A stretch of DNA of 32,421 nucleotides from Planctomycetota bacterium (GTDB lineage Bacteria; Planctomycetota; Planctomycetia; Planctomycetales; Planctomycetaceae). The DNA is taken from positions 1 to 32,421 of the forward strand of contig QWQG01000029.1 of the NCBI GenBank assembly GCA_003670925.1, in the 5' to 3' direction. The notes below the pieces were generated by a model. That model saw only the letters and a program-made list of their open reading frames with translations. It ran no database searches and was not told the DNA's origin. Numbering within the stretch: position 1 is the stretch's first letter; every line of letters begins with the position of its first letter. Of the stretch, positions 18,257 through 30,066 are shown piece after piece. A program made the position numbers and the translations under genes.

Positions 18257-20551
18257 TCAGGGGGTGGTCACCTCTGTTTGACGCAAGATTCTGACCGCTT
18301 CAATGGCCCCGGCTTCTGGTGCAAGGGCTGTATTGGCGATTCCGGAGACGACTTTTGTGATGTTGTGATCGACTTGGTCTGCGATGCCCCACGTTTGTCC
18401 ATCAGCACGAGTCATGTAGACGGAAAGTGTATGATGACCACTCCCCGGTCGTTCGCCGATAATGTGCAGAATGGTGAACATGCCGTCGCGGCCACCGAAG
18501 AGTTGCTCGCCAATCCGATAACCGGCCCGGACGCGGCCTGAATTGACGACCAGATTCTCTGGAGAGACGAAGAACTCGGTTCCGGCCAGCTCCGTGCGCA
18601 CCCGATGCAGGAGGCTAAGTAACTGGTTACCGTCCATCACCGCGAGTGCATTCAAGCCGTCGGAGATGACGATTTGCGTGTTGAACTGTGCGTCTCTTTC
18701 ACGTCGCAACCCTGCGATCACCGTGGCAGCCTCGTCTGACAGATGCTCACCCGAGACCGGATGCAGGATAAAATCCGTGCGGTCTGCAGATCGCGTGTTT
18801 AATCGTGTAACATCAGGAACAGTCGCGACGAAGGCATCGTCTAACTGCATCCAGATGGAGATTTTGGCGTCGTCGTAGATGTGCTGAATGTGTTTGGCCA
18901 GCGATGGATGCAGAATCGAAGGCTGTGCGCCAAATCCTTCGGCAATAAAGACGCCGCGGGCACGCACGGCCGCGATCAGGGTGGCCGCTGCGGACTGAAT
19001 TTCCTTGTCTGATCGGGCATCGTTTTTTCGGCGACAGTACTGTTGATACACCCAAGATGGATCGCCGAAGTGCTCCGTGGGCTGCCCCTCTGCATCGATC
19101 ACACCCAGTTGCTGGAAGAACTGCCACATGCGATCATTGACTTTAAAACCAAATTTTTCACGAATATGAACGTGATCCTGAAAGCCGGTTGTCAGATATC
19201 CCAGCATCGGATCAATGCGCGTCGGCAACGCCATCAGATAGCCGGGGTTAGCGGGCATGATCTGATCGATGCACCATCGCAGATCATCGAGACTGACATC
19301 CATGTGCAACGTGGAACATACGTCCAGACCAATCATCAGTCCATGCAGTTTGCCCATCACGATGTCTTCCAGACAACAACGCACGAGCTGTTCGCGTGAC
19401 CGAAAAACTTCCGGGCCAATGAAGCCGGCAACATCATTAAGAATAACCCACGGATGTTCGTGTTTGCCACGACGCGTAAGAGTCGCTGCAACCATCTGAG
19501 TGAGTACTTTGGCAAAGCCATACTTGCGCGATTCATGAACGACCATATCAACACCATGACCATGGCCATTCGTAAAGTCGGCTCCCTGACCTGTCTCAAA
19601 GTAGAGGCTAAATCGTCCGTCTCGCGACTTTGCATGCTGCACCATCTTATCGACGGAAATATCAAACGTGTTGTTTGCGTTGTCATTTCCAGCAATGCTT
19701 TGAAACCACAATGCCGTGAGGCTGGGATGGGCGCTTTCCACCGCAGCCTGAACATCGATATGCGCGAGGACGCAGTGCGGCAAGACATTTTCAATTCCAA
19801 ATGTCACCAACACATCCCTGAGCGTTTCCTCCACGGCTGCCACGGATTCCGGAGTGCTCGAAACGGGATTCGTCCCCAGCAGCACATCGCCGACAGCGTA
19901 CGCAAAGGCGTCAAAGACCTGCCAGCGGATATCATCAACATTATCGGTTGGTGAATTGGGTTGAACCCTAGCCCCCATATAACCTCGAGCGCCAATTTTT
20001 GATTCAGGGAGTGGATTAAAAACCTTCGCGCCAATTTGAATGAGCTCAGCGTTGCTCATCAGGCGAACGACACACGCAATGACGTCACTGGAAAGTCCGG
20101 CGCGGAGAGCGTGAATCTCGGATTCGCTTCTTTCCAGCAGAAATGTTTTCAACGCTCCAAGGGTCATCTCGCCACACTTCTGCTGAATTTCACGGTTGAG
20201 GGCCGAAGTGATCAGTTCTGAAAGTTCGTCGCGAAACGGGGGGTGTTGATCGATTTCGCTCAATGCTGTGGAAGCAAGAAGCTCACGAGCCTGCCGACGA
20301 GCATCGTCATCGACCGCGGCAACGCCGATGATAGCATCACCTTCCTTGAATTCGTTTGCGGCTCCCAGCAACTGTTTGTACATCGCGGCATCCCACTTGC
20401 CCTGCACGCGTTGGATGTAAGCAAACACGCTTTCTCCCAGCGTAGAGCCTGCCATAGGCTTTGTCGTACCGCTGGCTGCCGACGATGTCGCACACTTCGC
20501 AAGCGTTTGCCCGGCAAGCCCTAATGCCAGAAATCGTCTACGATGGAGCAT
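18257..20551 (-). CDS. eutBC: Fused ethanolamine ammonia-lyase (EutB-EutC) with Tat-type leader
   Basis: The 764-residue protein joins the large (EutB, about 40-600) and small (EutC, about 610-764) subunits of the adenosylcobalamin-dependent lyase that converts ethanolamine to acetaldehyde and ammonia. EutB residues are present: R195 and Q197 (ARVQPN), N228 (GTNPV), E319 (YFETGQG), plus GFIGPE and MGKLHG. The EutC part shows ISDGLNALA, NSGRVRAGYRIGE and IGERPGSGHHTLSVYMT, and lacks the usual N-terminal third of EutC. The N-terminus MLHRRRFLALGLAG fits a twin-arginine signal (RRxFL), followed by a Cys at 20 with a poor lipobox. ATG 20551 has AGGGA upstream; the frame is open to 20611. No microcompartment, EutA or aldehyde dehydrogenase gene is nearby. 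Confidence 0.9.
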   Translation of the reverse strand: MLHRRRFLALGLAGQTLAKCATSSAASGTTKPMAGSTLGESVFAYIQRVQGKWDAAMYKQLLGAANEFKEGDAIIGVAAVDDDARRQARELLASTALSEIDQHPPFRDELSELITSALNREIQQKCGEMTLGALKTFLLERSESEIHALRAGLSSDVIACVVRLMSNAELIQIGAKVFNPLPESKIGARGYMGARVQPNSPTDNVDDIRWQVFDAFAYAVGDVLLGTNPVSSTPESVAAVEETLRDVLVTFGIENVLPHCVLAHIDVQAAVESAHPSLTALWFQSIAGNDNANNTFDISVDKMVQHAKSRDGRFSLYFETGQGADFTNGHGHGVDMVVHESRKYGFAKVLTQMVAATLTRRGKHEHPWVILNDVAGFIGPEVFRSREQLVRCCLEDIVMGKLHGLMIGLDVCSTLHMDVSLDDLRWCIDQIMPANPGYLMALPTRIDPMLGYLTTGFQDHVHIREKFGFKVNDRMWQFFQQLGVIDAEGQPTEHFGDPSWVYQQYCRRKNDARSDKEIQSAAATLIAAVRARGVFIAEGFGAQPSILHPSLAKHIQHIYDDAKISIWMQLDDAFVATVPDVTRLNTRSADRTDFILHPVSGEHLSDEAATVIAGLRRERDAQFNTQIVISDGLNALAVMDGNQLLSLLHRVRTELAGTEFFVSPENLVVNSGRVRAGYRIGEQLFGGRDGMFTILHIIGERPGSGHHTLSVYMTRADGQTWGIADQVDHNITKVVSGIANTALAPEAGAIEAVRILRQTEVTTP

Positions 20552-20582
20552 CGATAAAGTCCCTGAAAGCCGACTCAATCTG

Positions 20583-20844: not shown

Positions 20845-21786
20845 ATGCCAGACAATTTGAATGTATTCTGTGGTTGTATCCCAGCCTTGATGACACCCTG
20901 TGCGGCCGATGGTGTGCCGGATTTTGTGGCACTGGTTGCGAAAGCTAAGGAACTGATTGAAATTGGCATGCGAGCTGTAGTGTATTGTGGTTCGATGGGT
21001 GATTGGCCCTTGTTGACGGATGCCCAGCGACAGGAAGGTGTGCGACAGTTGTGTGAGGCGGGGGTTCCGGTCGTTGTCGGAACAGGCGCTCAGAATCCGG
21101 CGATAGCAGCTGCTCATGCGGCGCACGCGAAGAAAGTTGGTGCGGCGGGTTTGATGGTCATTCCGCGAGTTCTGTCACGTGGTAGTTCAGCGACCGCACA
21201 ACGTCATCATTTCGCAGGGGTTCTCAAAGCAGCGGCAGGCTTGCCTGCCGTCATTTACAATAGTCCGTATTATGGATTCGAAACGAAGGCTGAGCTGTTC
21301 TTTGACCTCCAGCGAGAGTTTTCAAATCTGGTGGGCTTCAAGGAATTCGGCGGAGCGGACTCATTGAGTTACGCGGCCGAACACATCACCAACCGCGATC
21401 CTCGCCTGACGCTAATGGTCGGTGTCGATACGCAGGTCTATCACGGCTTCGTGCACTGCGGTGCTGCCGGTGCGATCACGGGCGTCGGCAACGCACTGCC
21501 GCGTGAAGTTCTGCGACTGATCGCTCTGTGCGAAAAAGCAGCCACCGGCTGTCCCGATTCGCGGCGGCTGGCTCAGGAACTGAACGAAGCTCTGACCGTG
21601 CTGTCCACCTACGACGAAGGCCCCGATCTGGTGCTGTACTATAAATACCTGATGGTGTTGGAAGGCAATTCGGAATACAGCCATCATTTTAATCCGTCTG
21701 ACGTACTTAGCCCCAGCCAGCAGGCGTTCATTCAAACCCAGTGGCAGCTCTTTCGCACATGGTGGAGCCGCTGGAATCAGGGCTAA
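20845..21786 (+). CDS. DapA/NAL-superfamily lyase, pyrroline-4-hydroxy-2-carboxylate deaminase-like
   Basis: The 313-residue protein is a TIM-barrel Schiff-base enzyme of the dihydrodipicolinate synthase superfamily. It has the conserved tyrosine Y138 (IYNSPYYGFET) and Schiff-base lysine K166 (GFKEFGG). The usual GTTGE motif is CGSMGDWPLLT, which argues against a lysine-biosynthesis DapA. This motif with PRVLSRG and GVDTQVYHGFVHCGA resembles the hydroxyproline-pathway deaminase (HypD) as I remember it, which converts 1-pyrroline-4-hydroxy-2-carboxylate to 2-oxoglutarate semialdehyde. ATG at 20845 has GGAAG five bases upstream and gives the family N-terminus; an in-frame ATG at 20821 is less good. 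No other hydroxyproline gene is adjacent. Superfamily is certain; subfamily is moderate. Confidence 0.82.
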   Translation: MPDNLNVFCGCIPALMTPCAADGVPDFVALVAKAKELIEIGMRAVVYCGSMGDWPLLTDAQRQEGVRQLCEAGVPVVVGTGAQNPAIAAAHAAHAKKVGAAGLMVIPRVLSRGSSATAQRHHFAGVLKAAAGLPAVIYNSPYYGFETKAELFFDLQREFSNLVGFKEFGGADSLSYAAEHITNRDPRLTLMVGVDTQVYHGFVHCGAAGAITGVGNALPREVLRLIALCEKAATGCPDSRRLAQELNEALTVLSTYDEGPDLVLYYKYLMVLEGNSEYSHHFNPSDVLSPSQQAFIQTQWQLFRTWWSRWNQG

Positions 21787-21802: not shown

Positions 21803-22391
21803 TTAACTGCTGCGCACGCCTACAGTATCGAAGTTGTCGTCGCTGATGGGGGCGTTAATGAAAATAGATCGAGGGGCGAACGCGGCGAGGACTTCTTGGA
21901 ATTCAAATGGGCTCCTGTCCGGATCATTGCCATAGTCCTTGCCCTGAACTTTGAAGTCATAGGGGTCTTCGCCGAATGCTGGGATCCTGGACTAGACAGA
22001 CGAAACCGCGTACTGCGAGTTCGTGCGCATGATGCAGATTCTCGAGTGCGCCAAGTCCTGCCGGTTCGTCTTTGCCAATGCCGGTCGTCTGATGCAGACA
22101 GAGCAGCGTTGCTCCCGGTGATGTTTGTCCCGTGGGAATCAGCAGCCATGCCGGGACACGATCACCTAGTTCCGTCGCAAATGAGATTTTCTGACGTTCG
22201 TAGCCCGCAACGGGTACCGTCGGCACAACTTGCGCGTCGATAGGTACGCGACAATCAGAATCCGGAAGAGTTCCCATGGTGAGACTCATTCCTGCCAGAA
22301 TCAGCGCCCGCCGCATACCCATTTGCAACGGCGTCGTGATCGGCTGTAACCAGCCTGCGTCATCTCTCAGAACCATGACGTTGTGGTGATC
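21803..22391 (-). pseudogene. Decayed alpha/beta hydrolase (acetyl xylan esterase/dienelactone hydrolase-like)
   Basis: Two minus-strand frames carry parts of one esterase-like protein. The first (22391 to about 21985) encodes VLRDDAGWLQPITTP, ISFATELGDRVPAWLLIP, LCLHQTTGIGKDEPAGLG and RGFVCLVQD. The frame then shifts near 21982 (expected D-Y-P is now GATC-CCA, a two-base loss) and continues as PAFGEDPYDF, then KDYGNDPDRSPFEFQEV and LAAFAPRSIFINAPISDDNF to a TAA at 21803. The segment between YDF and KDYGND that should carry the nucleophile GHSLGG motif, roughly 90 residues, is missing. So are the signal peptide and the last part with the catalytic His. N-terminal truncation, internal deletion, frameshift and C-terminal truncation together show a dead gene. 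Confidence 0.82.
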
Positions 22392-22409: not shown

Positions 22410-24791
22410 CTATCGGCATTCAGCGAGGGCGGTTCGCGCAGATTGAATCTTGGCGGCGGGAAGTTCAACATCGTCTGGCAGATAGCGAGCCTGTTCATAG
22501 ATTTCGGCGAGTGTCTGCACTGCGCTACCTTGTTGCGGGGATTCAGCAGCGAGCTGTGTCGCAGCGGCGCGATGCGTCCACCAAGATTCAACGAGCTTGT
22601 GCGGATTCAACGCCAGTGCGTGAAACGCCGAGATGACGTCCTCGCGTGAGCGAATGTCACTTGGCTGGTAAACTCGCTGAGAATCGGCAACGCCAGTTGC
22701 AACCGATACCAGTTGCAGCAATGGTCGCCGCATCACGAACACAGCAACAGCCACCATTCCCAAAAGTCCCAGACCGATCATAAGAAATGATTCGAGCGGC
22801 AATTGAGTGTCACCGGAAACGGAAGTGCCCCCACCGGACGACGCTCGCGGTGAAGTCGGGGCTGGTGGTGCCTTGCTGAGATCTGACAGAAAATTGGATG
22901 CGGCATCACTCCACGTGTGCGTGCTTGAATCCGTGTGAGACTGCTGCCGTGACGAATCGCGTGGTCGTCGCGATTCACCTGATCGCTCCTTAAACTTCGC
23001 TCCATTGATCAATTCTTCCATCTGATCATCCATGCCGCTCAGCAAGTCCGTCAGCGATTTCTGCAGACCTGCGTCACCGGGAGTTCCGTTCCGACCACTC
23101 GGACTAGCCGTGTTTTCCGGCTGCATGGGATTCTTCCCGGACGAGCCTTCATTTCGATCAGTCTGACCGGCAAGCGAATCCAGCTTTGACTGCTGCTCAG
23201 CCTGCTTTTCCGCAAATTGTCGGGCTTTAGTTTCTTCCCTCGCATTCTGGATCAGTTGATCGAGTGTGCCACGGAGGCCCCGTTTTTGCAGCTCACGTTG
23301 AATATCGATCTTCGATTGGTTCGTTTCCGGAGACGCATCCGGAGAACCTGTCGGTTCCGAATCATTGCCCCCGGAATCACGTGGCATTGATGATTGCGGA
23401 CGTGCATTGCTACCAGACGTTTTGGAATCGGGAGTTCCTTCTTTTGCACCGGGTGCCGGAAATCCCCTGCGGAGCTGCTCCTGCAGGAATTCCGAAACGG
23501 AAGGCATCGATTTTTCCGATGAACCATTCCCGGATGATTTTTGACCCTGCCGTTCAGCGCTCTGATCAAGGCCGTCACGATCCGCAGGCGGCGACTGGGG
23601 GTTTCTACCGGACGGCATCTCCGCAGGCGGAAAAACTTCGCCTTGCTCCGACGTCCTCGGGCCGAATCTGACTGGCGGTTCAACGGGCGTCGCACGATCC
23701 GGACGTCGATTCACGCGTTTTAAAGCGTCAGGTGCCGGGGCACTTCCATTATCTTCGCTGCGCGGCGACCGCATACCAGGACGCACCTCCGGCAAACGTG
23801 TCTCGTCGGGGTCAGGGCTATCCGTTCCATCGTCAGATGGCTGCTGTTTTCGCTGCGAATCCTTGAAGCGCTCCAACAAATCCTGAAATGCCTGCAATGA
23901 TGGCTGCTGAGTTTCACGATTGCCTGCCTCTTCGTCGCCAGGATCGCCTGCACCACGCTCAACCTCGTTTAGGTCAGCCTCGTTGCGATCGGTGTCAGGT
24001 TGTTCGGTGCGCGGTTCTTCGGTGTCAGGTTGTTCGGTGCGCGGTTGTTCGGTGCGCGGTTGTTCGGTGTCAGGTTGTTCGGTGCGAGGTTGTTCGGTGC
24101 GAGGTTGTCGTTCGTCTCCGCCGCCGCGTTTCGGGGACGTGCGTGGCAAAGCATCGGCGCCATCCTCGGAAGCATCGACACGCGGACTCCCGTCCTCATT
24201 CTGCGGCGACTTGTTTTTTTTACCCTGAGCGATCTCAGACAGTTTCTTCATGGCGTCTTTGAGCAACTCCCATGATTGGTCAGCAGGCTTCGTCGGTGGC
24301 GATGCCTGCTCCTGAGGCTGAGTTGGAGATTGTCCCCGTCGCCGCGGAACCGGAGGCAACGGCGAGTTAGAAGTATCGCTGTCATTTTTGGGCAGCAGGC
24401 CATCTTTCGAAAACTGTTCCAGCAACTTCTTCAAATTCTGTTGCATGGCCGGATTCGCCATCGCTTCATCCAACTGCTCCTTCGGGATCGAATTAAGATC
24501 AGGAGGCATGACACCCGGTGGCAGTTGCTCCTGCAACTTATTCAGCGCCTGCTGCAACTGTTCCAACTGCTTGTCGTCGATCTTTGGACTGTCCTCAGGA
24601 GCAGCGACGATTGAACGTAATTTCTGCAGCAACTGCATCTGAGTCTGCACATCGGACAGCTTGCCCTGTGGTAACGGAAGAATCCGCTGCGAACCAAGAT
24701 CTCCTGACACCGATTGTGCTTCCGCCGTGTCGGTGCTGCACAACAGCGTCAACAGCACGCCCAGCATGCATCCACCAACAGAAGTCCGCAT
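22410..24791 (-). CDS. Secreted low-complexity protein with C-terminal DUF4129-like domain
   Basis: The 793-residue product has a signal peptide (MRTSVGGCMLGVLLTLLCSTDTAEAQ), then a Gln/Leu-rich helical part (about 40-130). A long disordered region rich in Pro, Glu, Arg, Ser and Gln follows, including eight pentapeptides (QPRTE/QPDTE, residues 229-268). Then come one membrane helix (FLMIGLGLLGMVAVAVFVM, about 668-687) and a cytoplasmic domain (about 713-792; REDVISAFHALAL...WWTHRAAATQLA...LAEIYEQARYLPDDVEL) like DUF4129. ATG 24791 has AGGAA 9 bases upstream and places the signal peptide at the N-terminus, so I prefer it to the longer frame opening at 24848. DUF4129 proteins often accompany MoxR/DUF58 genes, but none is here. 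Function unknown. Confidence 0.8.
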   Translation of the reverse strand: MRTSVGGCMLGVLLTLLCSTDTAEAQSVSGDLGSQRILPLPQGKLSDVQTQMQLLQKLRSIVAAPEDSPKIDDKQLEQLQQALNKLQEQLPPGVMPPDLNSIPKEQLDEAMANPAMQQNLKKLLEQFSKDGLLPKNDSDTSNSPLPPVPRRRGQSPTQPQEQASPPTKPADQSWELLKDAMKKLSEIAQGKKNKSPQNEDGSPRVDASEDGADALPRTSPKRGGGDERQPRTEQPRTEQPDTEQPRTEQPRTEQPDTEEPRTEQPDTDRNEADLNEVERGAGDPGDEEAGNRETQQPSLQAFQDLLERFKDSQRKQQPSDDGTDSPDPDETRLPEVRPGMRSPRSEDNGSAPAPDALKRVNRRPDRATPVEPPVRFGPRTSEQGEVFPPAEMPSGRNPQSPPADRDGLDQSAERQGQKSSGNGSSEKSMPSVSEFLQEQLRRGFPAPGAKEGTPDSKTSGSNARPQSSMPRDSGGNDSEPTGSPDASPETNQSKIDIQRELQKRGLRGTLDQLIQNAREETKARQFAEKQAEQQSKLDSLAGQTDRNEGSSGKNPMQPENTASPSGRNGTPGDAGLQKSLTDLLSGMDDQMEELINGAKFKERSGESRRPRDSSRQQSHTDSSTHTWSDAASNFLSDLSKAPPAPTSPRASSGGGTSVSGDTQLPLESFLMIGLGLLGMVAVAVFVMRRPLLQLVSVATGVADSQRVYQPSDIRSREDVISAFHALALNPHKLVESWWTHRAAATQLAAESPQQGSAVQTLAEIYEQARYLPDDVELPAAKIQSARTALAECR
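23988..24107 (-). repeat. Eight-unit 15-base coding tandem repeat (Q-P-[RD]-T-E)
   Basis: Eight consecutive 15-base units encode QPRTE, QPRTE, QPDTE, QPRTE, QPRTE, QPDTE, EPRTE and QPDTD. Units differ mainly in the third codon (CGC/CGA or GAC). They lie in the disordered part of the DUF4129 protein and could change copy number by slippage without a frameshift. Confidence 0.92.
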
Positions 24792-24934
24792 CGCGACAAT
24801 TCCTGCAAAGGCTATTCTTGTTGACTTTAGAACTCTCAACAGAAGCAAAAGGATTCTAGCACTTGCGCGGCGTCATTGAAGCGCCCATTTCCTCAATGTG
24901 AAAATCATCCGAAACAATCACGGCGCAGCAAAAA

Positions 24935-29013: not shown

Positions 29014-30066
29014 ATGAACGCCGCGCCGCTCATCAGAATGGATTACTCAATGAATGCCGTGCAGTTTCAGAAGACCGGTGAACCATTTGCGGTTCTCAAG
29101 ACGTTGGAGATTGATCGTCCCGTGCCAAAGGCTGGCGAAGTCTTGGTTCGGATGCTGGCGACGCCGATTAATCCATCAGATTTGATGTATATCCGCGGAC
29201 GCTACACCGTTCCGGCGCAGTGTCCTACAACGCCTGGTTTTGAAGGCGTCGGTGTTGTGGAAGCATCCGGTGGCGGTTTGCGAGGTCGATTGTTCATGAA
29301 ACGGCGAGTCGTGGTGCTCAATCGACGCGGCGGTAATTGGGCCGACTATGCAGTTGTCCCAGCGACAGAAGTCATTCCGATCAGCAGCTGCTTGTCAGTT
29401 GAACAGGCCGCGACATTCTTCGTCAATCCCGCGACCGCATGGGTGATGACGCGTGAAGTCCTGAAGGTACCGCAAGGACAATGGCTGGTCCAGACTGCGG
29501 CTGGTTCCGCACTTGGACGCATGATCATTCGACTTGGACGAACGACCGGTTTCAAAACATTCAACATCGTACGGCGGGAAAGTCAGGTAGAAGAATTACG
29601 AAGTCTGGGGGCAGACCATGTTGAAGTCTTTGACGAAGCCAAAAACATGCCGGACGCACTCAACGCATCAATTCGCAGGACGACCAGCATCTCCGGGGCT
29701 GGAGTTGGTTTTGCGATCGACGCCGTGGGCGGGGCCGCGGGATCGGCTGTGATTCAGAGTCTTGGCCATCATGGCCGCATGCTGGCTTACGGGACGCTCA
29801 GCAATGAGCCTCTGTCGTTCAGCCCGCGAGTCCTGATGACGACAAGCAGCAAAGTCGAAGGTTTCTGGCTGGGCAGATTCATGGCAGGCGTCTCGCTGCC
29901 ATTTAAACTGAGTCTGGTTCGCCGCCTCACAAAGTTGATCGACGCAGGTGTTCTGAGTACCGAAATAGCACGAACGTGCACACTGAATCAGATTCAGGAT
30001 GCGGTCAAAGCCGCAGAAGACTCGTCCGTGGCAGGGAAAGTCCTGCTCCGCATCGCAGAAGCCTGA
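29014..30066 (+). CDS. Zinc-free MDR oxidoreductase, enoyl-thioester reductase/quinone reductase-like
   Basis: The 350-residue protein is a medium-chain dehydrogenase/reductase. Seen are TPINPSDLMYIRGRY, GFEGVGVVEASG, NPATAWVMTREVL, the NADPH-binding loop QTAAGSALGRMIIRLG, and VEGFWLGRFM. Zinc-ligand cysteines are absent. INPSD, NPATAW and GFWL resemble mitochondrial-type 2-enoyl thioester reductase (MECR), so reduction of an enoyl thioester or a quinone with NADPH is likely. The start is uncertain: ATGs at 29014, 29038 and 29050 are in frame, none with a strong ribosome site, and family alignment favours 29050 (MNAVQFQKTGEP). I keep the longest. Confidence 0.85.
   Translation: MNAAPLIRMDYSMNAVQFQKTGEPFAVLKTLEIDRPVPKAGEVLVRMLATPINPSDLMYIRGRYTVPAQCPTTPGFEGVGVVEASGGGLRGRLFMKRRVVVLNRRGGNWADYAVVPATEVIPISSCLSVEQAATFFVNPATAWVMTREVLKVPQGQWLVQTAAGSALGRMIIRLGRTTGFKTFNIVRRESQVEELRSLGADHVEVFDEAKNMPDALNASIRRTTSISGAGVGFAIDAVGGAAGSAVIQSLGHHGRMLAYGTLSNEPLSFSPRVLMTTSSKVEGFWLGRFMAGVSLPFKLSLVRRLTKLIDAGVLSTEIARTCTLNQIQDAVKAAEDSSVAGKVLLRIAEA

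Follow-up and report, generated by a model that had tools for sequence, protein, structure and literature searches.

A fused EutB-EutC ethanolamine ammonia-lyase with a candidate twin-arginine leader in Planctomycetota, Myxococcota and rhizobia

The fused gene and its active site

The window analysed here is a stretch of 32,421 nucleotides (positions 1 to 32,421 of contig QWQG01000029.1, assembly GCA_003670925.1) from a bacterium of the Planctomycetaceae. Its minus strand, which carries all features of the gene given below, encodes at 18257..20551 (stop codon included) a protein of 764 amino acids, in which EutB and EutC of ethanolamine ammonia-lyase (EAL) are fused behind a leader of the twin-arginine translocation (Tat) type. 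The first-pass annotation of this DNA had noted both the fusion and the leader, and both are confirmed. The open reading frame (ORF) starts with ATG at 20551, and a longer TTG-started frame extends to 20611. The Shine-Dalgarno-like AGGGA at 20560..20564, read directly from the sequence 8 bases 5' of the ATG, agrees with the start preferred previously.

Both Pfam domains are found in this single ORF. EutB occupies residues 58-493 (19073..20380) with 449.2 bits against a curated cut-off of 25, and EutC occupies residues 555-758 (18278..18889) with 90.8 bits. They are separated by a junction of residues 494-554 (18890..19072). The NCBIfam EutB cut-off is also passed (591.8 against 554). Comparison with PDB entries 3abo and 2qez recovers both the EutB and the EutC fold.

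Alignment to E. coli EutB places R195, Q197, N228, E319 and D410 of the window protein (19322..19969) opposite R160, Q162, N193, E287 and D362, which we take to be the E. coli active-site residues, with the roles commonly assigned to them; R160 also appears in a reference title. The five residues are kept in each of the 79 sequences counted, namely the window protein, 75 leadered loci and three loci lacking the N-terminus. Thus the first four residues, described earlier as intact, are indeed so. A sixth position, E. coli E257, presumably also belongs to the active site. It is given no weight, since it is T in 78 of these sequences, I in one, and A in Listeria. Pairwise comparisons of the window gene and its close relatives L004 and L005 give dN/dS of about 0.06 in EutB and 0.08-0.09 in EutC. 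Domains, predicted fold and active-site residues together mark the predicted protein as an ethanolamine ammonia-lyase. It shares the folds and the active-site residues with EutBC of E. coli, Salmonella and Listeria (PDB 3abo, 2qez), but is one chain instead of two, carries an N-terminal Tat leader, and is about 30% identical in EutB.

A second EutB-EutC fusion, of 738 amino acids and leaderless, was found in the window genome directly after the EutA gene (L001, G000:C100:462-4094). Like the window protein, it and the similar planctomycete fusions L117, L121 and L127 have EutB and EutC in one frame. However, they lack a leader, are about 29% identical to the window protein and form a separate long-branched group. 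In addition, Ala in L001 takes the place of E. coli D362.

Conservation and spread of the leader

Residues 1-30 (20462..20551) lie outside the EAL fold in the structure model, with pLDDT of about 30. Residues 4-8 (20528..20542) form the twin-arginine (RR) motif RRRFL, heading the uncharged FLALGLAGQTLA, as expected from the RRxFL pattern proposed earlier. A match was found in 16 of the 18 genomes of the genus, the window genome included. Two of these loci are cut by contig ends, and the remaining 14 all have the RR motif: RRRFL in ten, and RRKLL, RRTFV, RRNFV and RRQFL in one each.

The pattern of substitutions is informative. In all three pairs formed by the window gene, L004 and L005, residues 1-8 are 100% identical despite dS of 0.18-0.82, whereas residues 9-45 are only 41-54% identical, and EutB is held at 90-91% identity with dN of 0.05-0.06. 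Such a fixed start, followed by a drifting segment and a constrained enzyme, is typical of a translated signal peptide. The closer pairs L006/L007 and L006/L008 are less telling, as their residues 9-45 are 92-95% identical; L008 has a single change within residues 1-8 (H3 to I3). The first-pass annotation had named a leader not conserved among orthologues as one refuting outcome. By this analysis the RR motif is kept while the rest drifts, which marks residues 1-30 as a conserved, translated, signal-peptide-like predicted Tat leader.

A TATFIND-like rule of our own, combining the RR motif with a following uncharged, moderately hydrophobic stretch, is passed by 74 of the 75 leadered loci, the exception being L029. 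Of 274 ATG-started neighbour ORFs with at least 150 amino acids, 29 pass as well, a contrast that is somewhat flattered, as the family starts were picked with the motif in view and the control starts were not. The window leader contains LAKC, but no lipobox. On the other hand, 24 of the 27 leadered myxobacterial loci have a lipobox-like motif after the RR motif, as would suit an exported protein. AxA-like ends, e.g. SHA-A and AWA-D, are seen in some leaders from planctomycetes and rhizobia.

When fusions were sought in other genomes and their N-termini compared, as had been suggested, 566 relatives were confirmed in a species-genome database. The best 80 of these, which overlap in part with the genus set, comprise 77 loci with an N-terminus, 75 of them with the RR motif, and three that lack the N-terminus. 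The starts of L031, L043 and L056 were assigned manually. The sources of these best 80 include several families of Planctomycetota, Myxococcota, and one bin each under the labels Bacteroidetes, Pseudomonadales and Gammaproteobacteria, where binning errors are possible.

Among 392 genomes of Planctomycetota, 38 contain EutB, with 39 matches: 14 of the ordinary type, four leaderless fusions like L001, and 21 fusions of the window lineage, 18 of them leadered. Some genes of this fusion set recur in the database scan. The ordinary-type frames are of 460-525 amino acids in 12 cases, 556 in one and 1365 in one, and inspection by eye found no RR leader at the likely start of any of the 14. The 1365-amino-acid open frame (L101, G342:C1) contains a 740-bit EutB match and may be another fusion.

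In Myxococcota, the query P0001 matched 96 of 193 genomes, many via ordinary EutB; matches of about 26-38% identity were omitted as presumed ordinary EutB or EutC. Six truncated or fragmentary pieces were omitted as well (two from G568, two from G580, one from G476 and a 58-residue piece from G412). The fusions inspected comprise 68 loci in 54 genomes, and 27 loci pass the leader rule. A leadered copy and a non-leadered one occur together in 13 genomes, a leadered copy alone in 12, two leadered copies in one, and a non-leadered copy alone in 28. The leader of L183 and L188 looks lost or decayed by eye. In one case, L197 (G460:C35), the N-terminus MTKFSFFWLIALVGFPGLAAPKDLAQ looks by eye like a Sec-like leader replacing the Tat leader.

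Finally, with 51-53% identity, the fusion was found in rhizobial plasmid records of Sinorhizobium meliloti, S. fredii, S. terangae, Ensifer and Pararhizobium; the S. meliloti matches include strains Rm41, GR4, SM11 and BL225C. The three copies inspected all have an RR leader (LTRRDLLLM, LSRRELLTM, LSRRDLLVM). The S. meliloti BL225C protein, of 782 amino acids, retains all five active-site residues; the frame of the Ensifer canadensis copy is apparently broken.

Gene neighbourhood and host genomes

The direct neighbours of the EAL gene are gyrA and a divergent DHDPS-family (DapA-like) gene at 20857-21783 on the plus strand. No eut, shell or aldehyde dehydrogenase families were found among 20 other ORFs of the window compared with Pfam, so that the shell and eut genes expected alongside an Eut microcompartment enzyme are not seen there. 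The earlier statement that no microcompartment, reactivase or aldehyde dehydrogenase gene is adjacent therefore stands for the window. It does not extend to the genome, where EutA lies on contig C100 and two bacterial microcompartment (BMC) shell genes lie on contig C168. A zinc-type alcohol dehydrogenase-like gene is at 29014-30066, 8.5 kb from the EAL gene.

A conserved operon partner was sought in 81 loci and rejected, as the largest non-EAL neighbour cluster covers only ten of them. This cluster consists of a Tat-leadered planctomycete protein, which we take to be of the DUF1501 family. The next one is a loosely linked PQQ_2/BamB-like set in eight loci. In L030, L040, L052, L075 and L081 a close relative of the L052 PQQ_2 protein is encoded upstream on the same strand, 10-35 bases from the EAL gene (the Pfam assignment is for L052 only), and a 28% identical relative lies 30 bases downstream in L057. 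Given this close linkage, the PQQ_2/BamB-like protein may be a local partner. In L070, from a bin labelled Bacteroidetes, the gene of a periplasmic binding protein (Peripla_BP_6; L070:6709-7986) lies upstream of the leadered EAL gene at a distance of 15 bases. In GC-rich myxobacterial loci and in one Tautonia locus greedy ORF calling broke down, and seven of the 81 loci have no EAL gene model; in six loci re-called using GC3, no eut-like neighbours were seen by eye.

TatC was found in 16 of the 18 genus genomes, including that of the window (G000), and was not found in G001 and G013. Cobalamin adenosyltransferase was found in 15 of the 18, again including the window genome. EutA is present in one genome only, that of the window, beside the leaderless fusion on C100. 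Five of six named genomes gave partial EutA matches, of about 27 bits and spanning 45-62 of 475 positions; these were not counted, as the search also responds to the controls B. subtilis and Caulobacter.

Two further ORFs of the window, both on the minus strand, have no Pfam match. The first (21957-22376, 139 amino acids) begins, by eye, like an alpha/beta hydrolase and stops early; a frameshift, a pseudogene or an assembly error is possible. The second (22413-24848, 812 amino acids) contains low-complexity repeats of the RTEQPDTEQP type and a likely membrane segment.

Proposed export and its alternatives

The sequence evidence supports the proposal of the first-pass annotation that this is a Tat-exported B12 enzyme. 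We consider it probable that the gene encodes an adenosylcobalamin (AdoCbl)-dependent EAL, made as a single fused chain and exported from the cytoplasm by Tat. AdoCbl would be bound at the EutB-EutC interface, and the fusion would hold this interface within one polypeptide. The chain would fold and bind its cofactor in the cytosol, and would be exported by Tat already folded. In the periplasm it would split ethanolamine into acetaldehyde and ammonia, which would diffuse into the cell; the ethanolamine might, at a guess, derive from phospholipids. The myxobacterial copies would be lipoproteins held at the membrane in the periplasm. No ATP-dependent reactivation would be expected there, and thus each molecule would work until its cofactor is spent. 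A broader proposal, which we judge about evenly poised between true and false, is that a widespread EAL lineage carries out its AdoCbl radical reaction extracytoplasmically, the fusion providing one exportable pocket, cofactor loading serving as a folding check, and no reactivase being involved.

Several observations weigh against this reading. Firstly, in the window protein the uncharged stretch after the RR motif runs for only 12 residues up to K19, just short of the 13 uncharged residues required by TATFIND, and the cleavage site is weak. Secondly, the NCBIfam EutC equivalog cut-off is missed (65.5 against 230), and thus the EutC half is divergent. Thirdly, Salmonella EAL is reportedly a [(EutB-EutC)2]3 oligomer, so that export would have to precede assembly. 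Further, G013 (98% complete) holds a leadered copy, yet no TatC was found in it, and no general partner, including one for acetaldehyde, was found in the 81 loci. A passage of PMC5821096 describes EutA as the factor that replaces the EAL cofactor, damaged in use, at the expense of ATP, and EutA was not found in 17 of the 18 genus genomes, unlike in the E. coli, Salmonella and Listeria systems. The lack of a known reactivase in most of these hosts fits a compartment without ATP, but it is also puzzling.

Finally, leaderless members exist in the same lineage, and thus export is not essential to the fold. They include two of the 77 database loci, L086 (Myxococcus) and L092 (Archangium), three of the 21 planctomycete fusions (L128, L204, L207) and the 41 of 68 myxobacterial loci that fail the leader rule. 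L086 and L092 are 55-60% identical to the window protein, and D410 is kept in L086. Unlike the window protein, they have neither an RR motif nor a lipobox. Leaderless myxobacterial proteins begin near the start of the structured core of the others (MSVSLRDVLTGEDVFGY vs ...GVYIPDVKPGEDVFGY), and in 13 of 54 genomes a protein of this type occurs together with a leadered copy.

The history of the leader was considered on quick trees with many open forks, rooted with the L001 type as an outgroup and leaving out L079 and L093. With four ambiguous rows uncounted in either tree, the leader label needs one change on the first tree of 73 rows. A single change was not upheld, as three are needed once six rows are added (leaderless, rhizobial and leadered planctomycete, two of each; 79 in total). 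L128 and L204 are at the base, whereas L207 and the myxobacterial leaderless clade are nested inside. With three changes, gain and loss of the leader are indistinguishable; one reading is an early single gain followed by two losses.

Of the alternatives, an altered role fares best, although we hold it to be unlikely: the protein would be exported by Tat, but would act on another vicinal amino alcohol or merely bind cobalamin in the periplasm. The divergent EutC, the lack of adjacent ethanolamine genes in the window and of a conserved partner in the 81 loci, and the absence of Rfam matches at gathering score, hence of a B12 riboswitch, in eight sources would all agree with it. However, the invariant active site and the low dN/dS of both halves argue for retained catalysis of the same kind. 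It is quite improbable that the leader is a non-exported or uncleaved anchor that ties a functional EAL to the cytoplasmic side of the membrane. The weak cleavage site and K19 are compatible with an anchor, but the RR motif is strongly constrained, and the lipobox-like motifs in myxobacteria and the AxA-like sites in some planctomycete and rhizobial leaders count against it. Strongly disfavoured is an EAL that stays in the cytosol and has its N-terminal helix as an encapsulation peptide for a microcompartment. We know of no such peptide featuring a conserved RR motif and a lipobox. BMC shell genes do occur in all 18 genus genomes, and classical EutC carries an encapsulation peptide according to a passage of PMC5821096. 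However, the shell genes of the window genome are on a contig other than that of the EAL gene, they are absent from 20 of 24 genomes chosen for a leadered copy (23 myxobacterial, one Tautonia), and the planctomycete shell type is described in a passage of PMC4207490 as serving fucose and rhamnose. A downstream start, for which the in-frame ATG at M33 and the leaderless relatives could be invoked, is rejected, as M33 is not conserved, the ATG is at the same position in 13 of 14 genus loci, AGGGA precedes it, and near orthologues share residues 1-8 exactly even though they have diverged at synonymous sites.

To our knowledge, AdoCbl enzymes are regarded as residents of the cytosol or of microcompartments. 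RdhA differs from EAL in its fold and its respiratory chemistry, and is not an AdoCbl radical enzyme. Like the window protein, however, RdhA (PceA) is a corrinoid enzyme with an N-terminal Tat motif and is exported folded, according to a passage of PMC6095959, and thus provides a precedent for such export of a folded corrinoid protein. In titles and beginnings of abstracts of a mostly open literature, together with passages of PMC5821096, PMC9172201, PMC4465626 and PMC4207490, nothing was found on a twin-arginine-exported EAL; one Desulfitobacterium genome paper treats EAL and twin-arginine separately. In titles and beginnings of abstracts, those combining adenosylcobalamin with twin-arginine contain no EAL, and those on exported or periplasmic EAL, EutBC fusions, or planctomycete or myxobacterial EAL contain nothing on export.

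The occurrence of the same leadered enzyme in several phyla suggests B12 radical chemistry outside the cytoplasm. If so, the periplasm of Planctomycetota, Myxococcota and Sinorhizobium would be a place where AdoCbl is both used and consumed, and ethanolamine would be converted to ammonia and acetaldehyde by an extracytoplasmic route, without import of ethanolamine itself. As the gene is present in Sinorhizobium meliloti, the question of an exported EAL would come within reach of a tractable organism.
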